From Streptomyces katrae (lineage in GTDB: Bacteria; Actinomycetota; Actinomycetes; Streptomycetales; Streptomycetaceae), in contig NZ_JNZY01000043.1 in NCBI RefSeq assembly GCF_000717655.1, positions 71,300-135,299 of the forward strand: a stretch of 64,000 nt of DNA, written 5' to 3'. The position numbers and the translations under genes were made by a program. The first letter of the stretch is position 1. Every line of letters begins with the position of its first letter. The notes beneath the pieces are model-generated. The model was not told where the DNA came from. It saw nothing but the letters and a program-made list of their open reading frames with translations, and made no database searches. This document shows, in pieces, positions 23,178-29,313 of this stretch.

Positions 23178-23193
23178 TGAACTGTATAGTTCA
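23178..23193. promoter_or_regulatory. TetR-type operator O3 before narK
   Basis: TGAACTGTATAGTTCA is the most symmetric copy of the block A operator and is preceded by two further TGAAC/GAAC pentamers. TATAGT at 23185-23190 could be a -10 box inside it. The narK start is 35 bases downstream. Confidence 0.7.
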
Positions 23194-23227
23194 AAGAGTC
23201 AGCCGCCGAACAGAAAGCCGAGAAGCC

Positions 23228-26708: not shown

Positions 26709-28096
26709 GCGCGGGCGAGGTGCTGGTGGTAGGCGGCGGCCCGGCCGCACAGCGGTTCGCGGAGCGGCTGCACCACCACGGGCACCGGGGCGGCATCACC
26801 GTGCTCGGCGCCGAGCCGCAGGCCCCGTACCAGCGGGCGCTGCTGGGCTCCGTCCTGGACGGGACGCTGCCGGCACCCGCCCTCGCCCTGCCCGTGCTGC
26901 CCGCGGGCATCCGCCTGCACACCGGGGTCACCGTGACCCGGATCGACCGCGCGCGCCGGCTCGTCCACGCCACCGACGGCACGGCCCGCTCCGTGCACCG
27001 CTACGACACCCTGGTCCTGGCGACCGGGTCCCGCCCGGCCGTCCCCCGGATCCCGGGGCTGCCGGCCGAGGGCGCGACGGCGCTGCGGACCCTCGCCGAT
27101 GCCGCGCGGTGCGCCGCGGCGCCCCCGGGAGCCGCCGTCGTCCTGGGCGGCGGGCTGCTCGGGGTCGAGGCCGCCGCCGCGCTTCGCCGGGCCGGGCACG
27201 AGGTGGCCCTCGTCCACCGCGGGCCGCATCCGCTGCACCGGCGGCTGGACGCCGCCGCGGGCGCGCTGCTCACCCGGCGCCTGGAGGGCCTCGGGGTCGA
27301 CGTCCATGCGGGCCGTACGGCGGCCGCGTACTGCCCCGGCAAGCTCACCCTCGACGACGGTCGCGTGCTCGCGGCCGACACCCTGCTGCTGTGCACCGGC
27401 ACGGTCCCCGAGACCGGGCTCGCCCGCCGGGCCGGGCTCACCGTCCGCACCGGCGTGGTCGTCGACGGCCTCCTGCGCACCGACGACCCGCACATCCACG
27501 CCATCGGCGACTGCGCCGCCCACCCGGGCGACACCGCCGGGCACCTCGAACCCGCGTGGGCGCAGGCCGAGTCGCTGGCCCGGCAGCTCACCGGCGCCGC
27601 CCCGGCGTACGGCGGCACCCGGCAGATCACCCGGCTGCGGGTGCCCGGCCTCGACCTGGTCGCCCTGGGGCGGGGCGGGGCGGCCGCCGAGGGCGCGGAG
27701 GTGGTCGCGTTCAACGATCCGGCGCGCGGCCGGTACGCCCGCCTCACCCTGCACGGGCAGCGGATCACCGGGGCGGTCCTGCTGGGGCTGCCGCGGGCCA
27801 TCGCCGCCGTGAGCCGGTTGTACGAGCTCGGCCTGCCGGTTCCGGCCGGACGCCTGGAGCTCCTGCTCGGCATCGCACCGGCCGCGCCGGGGGCCGGCGA
27901 ACTCCCCGGCGACGCGGTCGTCTGCCGCTGCAACAACGTCACGAAGCACACCGTCACCGAGGCCTGCCGGGCCGGCGCCGCCGACCTGGCGCAGATCGCC
28001 ACGACCACCCGCGCCACCACCGGCTGCGGCGGCTGTACGGACGTCGTCCGCGCGCTGTGTGCAGCCGTACGGCCCGAAGGGGGCAGCACGTCATGA
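26705..28096 (+). CDS. FAD/NAD(P)-dependent oxidoreductase with C-terminal BFD-like [2Fe-2S] domain (nitrate reductase electron transfer)
   Basis: 463 residues. Two dinucleotide-binding motifs (VLVVGGGPAAQRF; VVLGGGLLGVEAAAAL) and IHAIGDCAAHPG define the pyridine nucleotide-disulfide reductase fold. The C-terminus carries CRCNNVTKHTV and TTGCGGCTDVVRAL, the Cys pattern of a bacterioferritin-associated-ferredoxin-like [2Fe-2S] centre. This is the usual NasB-type partner passing electrons from NAD(P)H to NasC. The GTG start overlaps the nasC stop (GTGA). It has no sirohaem or [4Fe-4S] nitrite reductase module. Confidence 0.82.
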   Translation: MSAGEVLVVGGGPAAQRFAERLHHHGHRGGITVLGAEPQAPYQRALLGSVLDGTLPAPALALPVLPAGIRLHTGVTVTRIDRARRLVHATDGTARSVHRYDTLVLATGSRPAVPRIPGLPAEGATALRTLADAARCAAAPPGAAVVLGGGLLGVEAAAALRRAGHEVALVHRGPHPLHRRLDAAAGALLTRRLEGLGVDVHAGRTAAAYCPGKLTLDDGRVLAADTLLLCTGTVPETGLARRAGLTVRTGVVVDGLLRTDDPHIHAIGDCAAHPGDTAGHLEPAWAQAESLARQLTGAAPAYGGTRQITRLRVPGLDLVALGRGGAAAEGAEVVAFNDPARGRYARLTLHGQRITGAVLLGLPRAIAAVSRLYELGLPVPAGRLELLLGIAPAAPGAGELPGDAVVCRCNNVTKHTVTEACRAGAADLAQIATTTRATTGCGGCTDVVRALCAAVRPEGGSTS

Positions 28097-29313
28097 CCCG
28101 TACCGCTCGAACCCTCGTCGTCGCCGGGCACGGCATGGCCGGGCACCGGCTCGTCGCCGAGCTGCGGAGTCTCGACGCCGCCGGTGCCTGGCGGATCGTG
28201 GTGCTCGGGGAGGAGCCGCATCCCGCGTACGACCGGGTCGCGCTGTCCTCGTACCTCGACGGCCGCAGCGCGGCGGAGCTGGCCCTGGCCGGGCCCGGGT
28301 TCCTGGACGATCCGCTGCTGGATCTGCGGCTGAGCACCGGCGTGGCCGCCGTGGACCGGGCGGCGCGCACGGTGACCACCACCGCCGGCCATGTGGTCGC
28401 GTACGACGCGCTCGTCCTGGCCACCGGCTCGCGGCCGTTCGTGCCGCCCGTGCCGGGCCACGACCTGCCCGGCTGCTTCGGCTACCGCTCGCTCGGCGAC
28501 CTCGACGCGATCCGCGCCGCCGCCGTGCCGGGCCGCCCCGGCGTGGTGATCGGCGGCGGGCTGCTCGGCCTGGAGGCCGCGAACGCGCTGCGGCTGCTCG
28601 GCATGGAGCCGCACGTGGTGGAACTGGCCCCGCGGCTGATGCCGTTGCAGGTGGACGCGGCAGGCGGCGGTGTCCTGGGGCGGCGCGTGGCGCAGCGCGG
28701 GCTGCGGATCCACTGCGGTGTGGCGACGGCGGCGATCACGGCGGGCCCGGACGGCCGGGTGGCCTCGGTGGTGCTGGCCGACGGCAGCTCCCTCGAGGCG
28801 GACGTCGTGGTGTTCTCGGCGGGGGTGCGGCCGCGGGACGAGCTCGCGGGCCCGGCGGGCCTGGCCACGGGCGGGCGCGGTGGGTTCCTCGTGGACGAGC
28901 TGTGCCGGACGCAGGACGAGCGGATCTGGGCGATCGGCGAGTGCGCGGCCGTGTCGGGCCGCTGCCACGGGCTGGCCGCACCGGGGTACCGGATGGCGGC
29001 CTCCGTCGCCCGGCAGCTGCTGGGCCTGGGCGGGGAGCCGTTCGGGGAGGCGGACCTGTCCACCCGCCTCAAGCTGCTCGGCGTGGAGGTGGCGAGCTTC
29101 GGCGACGCCCATGCGGCCGCCGAGGGCGCGGTGGAGCTGAGCCGGCTGGACGAGGCGGCGGGGACGTACGCGAAGCTCGTGCTGGACGCGGACTGCAGCA
29201 CCCTGCTCGGCGGCATCCTCGTCGGTGACGCCCGCGCGTACGGCGAGCTGCGCCCGTACGTGGGCCTGGGCCTGCCCGCGGCGGGCCACCGGCTGCTGGC
29301 CGGGGCCGCCTGA
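28093..29313 (+). CDS. FAD/NAD(P)-dependent oxidoreductase, NirB N-terminal-like, without the reductase module
   Basis: 406 residues matching only the N-terminal FAD half of NirB/NasB (LVVAGHGMAGHRLVAEL; PAYDRVALSSYLDG; VVIGGGLLGLEAANAL; IWAIGECAAVSGRCHGLAAP). A true NirB continues for another 400 residues with Fe-S and sirohaem domains; here the gene ends cleanly at a strong terminator. It probably acts as a second diaphorase subunit for nitrate reduction. ATGA overlap with the previous gene. It should not be annotated as nitrite reductase. Confidence 0.8.
   Translation: MTRTARTLVVAGHGMAGHRLVAELRSLDAAGAWRIVVLGEEPHPAYDRVALSSYLDGRSAAELALAGPGFLDDPLLDLRLSTGVAAVDRAARTVTTTAGHVVAYDALVLATGSRPFVPPVPGHDLPGCFGYRSLGDLDAIRAAAVPGRPGVVIGGGLLGLEAANALRLLGMEPHVVELAPRLMPLQVDAAGGGVLGRRVAQRGLRIHCGVATAAITAGPDGRVASVVLADGSSLEADVVVFSAGVRPRDELAGPAGLATGGRGGFLVDELCRTQDERIWAIGECAAVSGRCHGLAAPGYRMAASVARQLLGLGGEPFGEADLSTRLKLLGVEVASFGDAHAAAEGAVELSRLDEAAGTYAKLVLDADCSTLLGGILVGDARAYGELRPYVGLGLPAAGHRLLAGAA

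Follow-up and report, generated by a model that had tools for sequence, protein, structure and literature searches.

The biosynthetic gene cluster at this locus combines a predicted route from aspartate to nitrite with nitrate reductase genes. The 64-kb stretch of DNA analyzed here (the window; positions 71300 to 135299 of contig C43, in an 8.58-Mb draft genome of 151 contigs) holds a putative diazo-forming cluster in which narK, nasC, nasB and the flavin half of nirB (23228-29313, here called the nitrate module) lie directly behind creE and creD on the same strand. The original prediction suggested that the block is a second nitrite source for diazotization. On comparative evidence, we consider it probable (roughly 80%) that the module is a nitrate-to-nitrite supply dedicated to the diazo-forming cluster. 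It is a second copy in the genome, it stands behind the operator of the cluster, 18 of the 29 such modules that were read lie in clusters of this kind, and there are lineages that have the module but lack CreE and CreD; taken together, these four observations make a dedicated nitrite source the best reading and support the claim of a second source by comparison.

The nitrate module and its operator

The first gene of the module, narK (23228-24619, plus strand), encodes a putative nitrate/nitrite transporter. Its product scored 277.1 bits against TIGR00886 (cut-off, 311.7), matched the PDB chains 4iu8 ("Nitrite extrusion protein 2") and 4u4t (NarK), both with E values of about 3e-82, and in an alignment with 4iu8 retained both of the conserved substrate arginines (R89 and R305 in Escherichia coli NarK). 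The next gene, nasC (24612-26708, plus strand), is assigned as the catalytic subunit of a molybdenum-dependent, assimilatory-type nitrate reductase, with domains PF04879, PF00384 and PF01568, an N-terminal [4Fe-4S] motif (CPYCALQC at residue 14) and NF047855 (NasC) as the top-ranked NCBIfam model, yet with a score (742.2 bits) below the cut-off of 1100. Its top PDB matches are formate dehydrogenases, and that identity was considered and rejected. Cys-Met at the active site presumably marks a nitrate reductase and Sec/Cys-His a formate dehydrogenase; the window NasC has Cys-Met (RFCM at 137), where the aligned F420 formate dehydrogenase has Sec-His. The third gene (26705-28096, plus strand) encodes a NasB-like electron-transfer protein with an FAD/NAD(P) domain (PF07992) and a BFD-type [2Fe-2S] domain (PF04324), in which a single cysteine motif, C407-x-C409...C441-x2-C444, was found. 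The last gene (28093-29313, plus strand) covers only positions 1 to 383 of the 794 positions of the NirB model TIGR02374. It encodes the flavin half without a BFD motif and without the siroheme/[4Fe-4S] C-terminal half, both of which mark a siroheme NirB, and a search of the whole window for the NirB C-terminal half and for NirD gave nothing above 50 bits. Successive frames of the module overlap by 8, 4 and 4 bases. Both the placement of these four genes immediately after creD behind the pathway operator and the reduction of the last one to the FAD half of NirB had been claimed in the original prediction, and both were borne out by the coordinates and by the operator and model searches.

The sequence TGAACTGTAYRGTTCA occurs as three exact copies in the draft genome, at 12911, 16165 and 23178, all of them in this cluster. 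The copy TGAACTGTACGGTTCA (12911-12926) precedes a pirin gene, TGAACTGTATGGTTCA (16165-16180) lies between tetR and an SRPBCC gene, with weaker overlapping sites at 16137-16157, and TGAACTGTATAGTTCA (23178-23193) fills part of the gap between the creD stop and the narK start. Exact TGAACN6GTTCA was found at six sites in the genome, of which these three only have a TGTAYR center, and a backward-read control gave no site. The likely owner of the operator is the TetR-family regulator encoded at 15431-16090 (minus strand; PF00440 and PF14246), whose gene stands beside an operator in L055, L105 and L085 as well (L and G numbers denote loci and genomes). An exact copy also precedes narK in all three of the nearest relatives in the ligase tree, G278 (L055), G250 (L057) and G331 (L106). 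Genome G361 (L085) has tetR, CreE and CreD, no module in the 20 kb read, and operators at other places. At two mismatches, no operator was found in ten more distant loci (L058 to L062, L066, L076, L086, L093 and L095) or in the G331 fragment L056, and co-regulation is therefore founded for the window's own lineage only. A promoter scan before narK was uninformative (0 sites, and 0.0 in shuffles).

Recurrence of the module with and without CreE and CreD

The genome has an intact, separate NasA on contig C2 (692 amino acids, 68% identical to the window NasC) and a full NirB on contig C14 that scored over the TIGR02374 cut-off and is followed by a frame called NirD-like from its position. Since housekeeping NasA and NirB are thus encoded on other contigs, the window module is an extra copy. 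The idea that the C2 gene might be a pseudogene was dropped, because its lone TGA proved on reading the sequence to be the terminal stop. A separate NasA with 69 to 94% identity to the C2 protein was present in 12 of the 13 module-bearing genomes checked.

A NasB search was made of 392 genomes of the same genus, with four candidates scored per genome, and neighborhoods were read for the 31 best rows (30 genomes including the window's own, with one mirrored pair in G108) and for a partial match in G180. Ligase and CreD searches scored three and four candidates per genome, and the module and ligase counts given here are those read and hence at least these numbers. Among the 30 neighborhoods besides the window, 28 had the flavin-half form and two (L082 and L083) had full NirB plus NirD. 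In 27 of the 28 flavin-half loci, nothing scored above 50 bits as a NirB C-terminal half or as NirD apart from a 60-residue stretch in L056 (51.6 bits); the remaining locus, L201 from G180, had no NirB match beyond the flavin half. Including the window, 29 modules were read, and 18 of these lie in clusters with a ligase of at least 67% identity and/or CreE plus CreD. Fourteen accompany CreE and CreD (the window, L055 to L057, L062 to L066, L068, L069, L073, L075 and L076) and four accompany the ligase without CreE or CreD (L058 to L061). Three more are in alanosine-type clusters (L067, L079 and L081), and one (L078) is beside a 55% ligase. The ligase is on the module's own stretch in 16 of the 18 clusters; the G331 cluster is spread over three contigs (L056, L105 and L106), and G289 (L063) carries its ligase on contigs other than that of the module. 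By a rough estimate, the chance expectation of a module and a ligase within 10 kb of each other is 0.006.

Contig C1 of G108 has two copies of the ligase, CreD and the module, at about 97 kb and at 11.23 Mb. These mirror positions lie close to the ends of the chromosome and would fit a location within terminal inverted repeats.

The ligase at 67% identity or more was found in 38 rows from 34 genomes, or 37 loci when the G108 pair is counted once. Thirteen of these loci have CreE, CreD and the module, four the module only, 16 CreE and/or CreD only, and four neither (L092, L098, L102 and L104, whose genomes carry CreD elsewhere). All 34 ligase genomes had one or the other potential source: 30 had a CreD match, either with an identity of 69% or more or with a score exceeding the curated cut-off, and the other four had the module. 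No CreE or CreD match was found in the four module-only loci, save for a creD fragment in L061. Supply in trans by CreE and CreD elsewhere in these genomes was considered and rejected, since the nitrosuccinate lyase model NF052556 was over its cut-off in none of the four (G009, G069, G239 and G356, the last being 96% complete with 7% contamination) versus five of five comparison genomes. CreE homologues in G069 and G356 were 38% identical over their whole length, and a single piece of 79 residues in G069 reached 61%. The L061 fragment, a 268-amino-acid frame between narK and the ligase in G069, matches residues 14 to 44 and 116 to 370 of the 478 of CreD and reads PSAMPYPRG where the window CreD has SSAMPHKRN; it is evidently a decayed creD.

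The module was also found with the ligase and without CreE/CreD in Kutzneria sp. (L121, a metagenome-assembled genome), Streptomyces sp. HM190 (L122) and Streptomyces marokkonensis (L123), all three being hits of a search baited with the module. The Kutzneria genes run SRPBCC, ligase, monooxygenase, narK, with no CreE-CreD match in between. The original prediction had named the same block at this locus in strains lacking CreE and CreD as a finding that would count against it. Such loci do exist, four in the genus and three in these named strains, but they do not act as a refutation: because the candidate diazotase and some or all of the 3-hydroxyanthranilate genes are retained in them, they favor nitrite supply over chance placement. 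On a ligase tree of 41 rows, in which L094 and L101 were scored as CreE/CreD bearing though only CreE was seen, the presence of CreE/CreD changed at least four times and that of the module eight times, gains and losses not being separated. In several lineages, the module would be the sole nitrite source remaining beside the ligase.

In L169 (Streptomyces chumphonensis) and L180 (Nocardiopsis sp. FIRDI 009), nasC and nasB lie some kilobases from a 46 to 47% ligase relative, with no CreE or CreD matches; these are possibly an independent pairing of a nitrate reductase with a diazotase.

Proposed role of the module and competing explanations

In the mechanism that we propose, NarK would import nitrate and NasC would reduce it at the molybdenum center, with electrons passing from NAD(P)H to NasB and perhaps also through the flavin half of NirB. 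Since the module has no siroheme reductase, nitrite would accumulate as its released product, and the ligase would use this nitrite with ATP to diazotize an amine that is probably derived from 3-hydroxyanthranilate. CreE and CreD would produce nitrite from aspartate in parallel, and the TetR repressor, presumably by binding the three operators, would switch both nitrite routes jointly.

That the block is simply an ordinary nitrate assimilation operon that came to lie here by chance was allowed for in the original prediction, and the gene set does resemble narK-nasC-nasB-nirB operons, with the siroheme half of NirB nearby in 70 of 80 named NasB loci; moreover, the only close NasA of G134 is the module copy. 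We regard this explanation as very improbable, given that the siroheme half is absent from 28 of the 30 genus neighborhoods read, that a separate NasA is present in 12 of the 13 genomes checked, that the operator is specific to the cluster and that one cluster type holds 18 of the 29 modules, against the low chance expectation given above. The original prediction also allowed for nitrite export by NarK, considered here with the block as a shield against stress from nitrite or diazonium. In its favor, nitrate and nitrite can be exchanged by proteins of the NarK family, but a nitrate reductase produces nitrite rather than removing any and six modules of the clade (L067, L070, L071, L074, L078 and L080) have no NarK match, so that this explanation is the most remote of those considered. 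A stronger competitor, though still an unlikely one, is that the module yields nitric oxide or a nitrosating mixture rather than nitrite, with NasC or one of the flavoproteins reducing nitrite further. The alanosine-type clusters L067 (G106), L079 (G023) and L081 (G130), which contain PAS, thioesterase, acyl-CoA dehydrogenase, A-domain and carrier-protein genes, with SbnA and SbnB visible in L081, carry a module of the same clade, and the module therefore appears to be common to diazo and probable diazeniumdiolate pathways. In the accessible text of PMC10831120, nitric oxide is counted as a confirmed alanosine precursor and alnP, alnQ and alnR are named as the reductase genes. Conversely, PMC10777205 describes assays of the diazotase CmaA6 in which ATP and sodium nitrite were supplied, nitrite is the product of CreE and CreD, which 14 of the 18 clusters possess, and no known nitric-oxide-forming nitrite reductase was recognized in the module.

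Several observations weigh against a dedicated nitrite supply. The alanosine reductases are reported, in the available parts of PMC11705231 and PMC10831120, to yield nitric oxide. Seven of the 29 modules (L070, L071, L072, L074, L077, L080 and L201) show neither ligase nor CreE/CreD nor any alanosine-type gene over the length read, although PKS- or NRPS-like (polyketide synthase or nonribosomal peptide synthetase) frames were seen by eye in L080 and L201, and 3-hydroxyanthranilate genes were seen in only eight of the 18 clusters (the window, L058 to L062, L068 and L076), the stretch read being at most 20 kb for most of the 18 and so short of the roughly 32 kb that separates these genes from the ligase in the window. 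As many as 16 of the 37 loci with the ligase show CreE and/or CreD but, over the length read, no module (among these, L086 and L087 end at contig ends, and L094 and L101 show CreE only), and many clusters retain both nitrite routes or CreE/CreD alone. The module-only loci are few, with three of them module baited, and two of their genomes, G009 and G239, carry a 57 to 58% CreE homologue elsewhere, the 20 kb surrounding it showing no match to CreD. In four independent pairs the module never moved in the same way as CreE/CreD, four pairs being too few to reach significance. The nasC gene of G250 (L057) is split over two frames (8701-10787) in an otherwise intact cluster, through either a sequencing error or decay. 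G134 has no NasA-type match above 47% besides the module NasC, so that the module may serve assimilation in that genome. Finally, NasC, NarK and the ligase all scored under the cut-offs of their nearest curated models, so that they were assigned a function by model rank, by motifs and by gene context.

L070, L071, L074 and L077 represent a branch of the module in a common neighborhood without recognized natural-product genes, the first three lacking narK. In L201, the module copy is next to A-domain-like and carrier-like frames, and in L126 (Streptomyces sp. NBRC 110611) it is near cupin-, A-domain-, carrier-, SDR- and PAS-like frames, short of the alanosine-type set; both were assigned by eye.

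Origin, genomic surroundings and known systems

The module may go back to a narK-nasC-nasB-nirB operon of the ordinary kind, after the siroheme half had been lost from its NirB. Among the best 80 named NasB loci (of 539 relatives), the NirB C-terminal half was in the locus in 70 and not in L121 to L124, L126, L135, L143, L169, L180 and L183; in L180 and L183 the NirB-like frame is cut by the locus end. The flavin-half modules grouped into one 31-row clade (SH-aLRT support, 100) on a NasC tree of 67 rows built by a quick method and into one 33-row clade (support, 99) on a flavin-half tree of 63 rows. Ordinary NirB loci were hand-picked from the 70, plus L082 and L083, and contributed 27 and 24 rows, respectively; the NasC tree was made without L057 (split frame) and the fragments L056 and L077, and L201 was in neither tree. 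L135, L143, L169 and L180 fell outside the NasC flavin-half clade. Both clades include one ordinary operon with full NirB and NirD, that of Saccharopolyspora elongata (L133). The simplest reading is a single loss of the siroheme half followed by spread, with L133 representing an ancestral-like or a later arrangement. For the module genes, 10 comparisons with L055, L057 and L106, the nearest relatives, gave dN/dS values of 0.16 to 0.38, and those with L058, L060 and L061 gave 0.24 to 0.53. We lean, with less assurance than for the role of the module itself, toward a broader view in which a single nitrate reductase operon lineage, founded by the loss of the NirB siroheme part, became a transferable nitrite cassette for N-N pathways, moving among diazo and diazeniumdiolate clusters, often alongside the aspartate route and several times independently replacing it.

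Between 15.4 and 29.3 kb of the window, the minus-strand tetR is followed on the plus strand by SRPBCC, ligase, FAD monooxygenase, CreE and CreD genes and then by narK, nasC, nasB and the NirB half. The SRPBCC/polyketide-cyclase-like protein (16273-16824; PF10604) adjoins the AMP-dependent ligase (16895-18496), a candidate ATP-dependent diazotase that occupies the place of pzm18. The ligase matched the acyl-CoA ligase superfamily, scored 76.9 bits against the AvaA6 model NF058622 (cut-off, 975) and had no CreM model among the matches listed (the best 25 of 58). The FAD monooxygenase (18496-19710) resembles 3-hydroxybenzoate 6-monooxygenase (NF006021, 457 bits; cut-off, 459). The putative aspartate/nitrosuccinate monooxygenase (19707-21704; PF13454, no NCBIfam match) is named CreE from its position beside creD as in pzm, and the nitrosuccinate lyase CreD (21701-23137) scored 795.4 bits against NF052556 (cut-off, 650). 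A lyase over the curated cut-off next to a CreE-type monooxygenase is what identifies the aspartate-nitrosuccinate route, and that pair is present here. About 32 kb from the ligase, the minus strand carries the 3-hydroxyanthranilate branch, namely an anthranilate-synthase-like (PhzE-type) enzyme (50990-52873; NF010081, 151 bits; cut-off, 645), a PhzD-type isochorismatase (52870-53724; PF00857; true start probably within the frame), a DhbA-type enzyme resembling 2,3-dihydro-2,3-dihydroxybenzoate dehydrogenase (53570-54340; TIGR04316, 347 bits; cut-off, 300) and a class II DAHP synthase (54371-55369; TIGR01358, 351 bits; cut-off, 614.7). The pirin-family gene behind the first operator lies at 12950-13855 (plus strand; PF02678 and PF05726). 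Three arylamine N-acetyltransferase-like genes (33390-34433, 38814-39665 and 40544-41398) share their region with a BagK/FevA1-like FAD oxygenase gene (37390-38826), which suggests that the product is amidated or undergoes other chemistry at an amine. The interval 46231-58949 holds aroA, a second gene for a 3-hydroxybenzoate 6-monooxygenase, a fused PabA/PabB-type enzyme and the C-terminal piece of a transketolase, which suggest an extra shikimate-pathway supply.

Among the closest described systems is the penzonemycin (pzm) cluster of Streptomyces sp. SCSIO 40020 (PMC9323291), which by its gene table shares with the window the DAHP synthase, anthranilate-synthase-type enzyme, isochorismatase, dehydrogenase, CreD and CreE, as well as a CreM-type ligase beside an SRPBCC gene and a quinone-reductase-like gene (10957-11940 in the window). 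The pzm-type set of 3-hydroxyanthranilate genes, CreD, CreE, ligase and SRPBCC is thus complete in the window; in the text available of PMC9323291, the corresponding pzm genes are proposed to make 3-hydroxyanthranilate. Unlike the window, the table of pzm1 to pzm22 lists no nitrate reductase, NarK or NirB-like gene. The cre, ava, cma and aha clusters likewise have CreE, CreD and an ATP-dependent ligase, and their accessible descriptions mention no cluster-encoded nitrate reductase. The nitrite source of CreE/CreD-less diazo clusters is an open question, with 72 of 134 ava-type clusters described as lacking both genes in the available parts of PMC10777205, and the module family is a candidate answer to it. 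If so, primary nitrate metabolism would be linked to diazo chemistry, the second nitrogen of N-N pathways could come from environmental nitrate, and nitrate addition would be worth considering when producers are screened; narK-nasC-nasB with a NirB flavin half would also serve as a genome-mining marker for N-N pathways missed by CreE/CreD searches.

The ordinary operon of S. elongata has the same gene order as the module, and the N-terminal half of its NirB is 69% identical to the window flavin half, but it keeps the siroheme half and NirD, and no window diazo genes were matched nearby. The original prediction that this arrangement had not been described stands for diazo clusters, none with its own nitrate reductase having been found in the literature searched, mostly the part outside subscription papers, and does not stand more widely. 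As far as the accessible text of PMC10831120 goes, nitrate/nitrite reductase components are encoded in clusters for alanosine (alnP, alnQ and alnR) and pyrrolomycin (pyr18 and pyr19). By their description, the alternative L-alanosine clusters encode these reductases where CreE/CreD-type genes are absent, as in the module-only loci, but their product is a diazeniumdiolate and they are reported to use nitric oxide, unlike the nitrite proposed here; pyr18 and pyr19 are likewise reductase components inside a natural-product cluster, but are tied to a nitro group.

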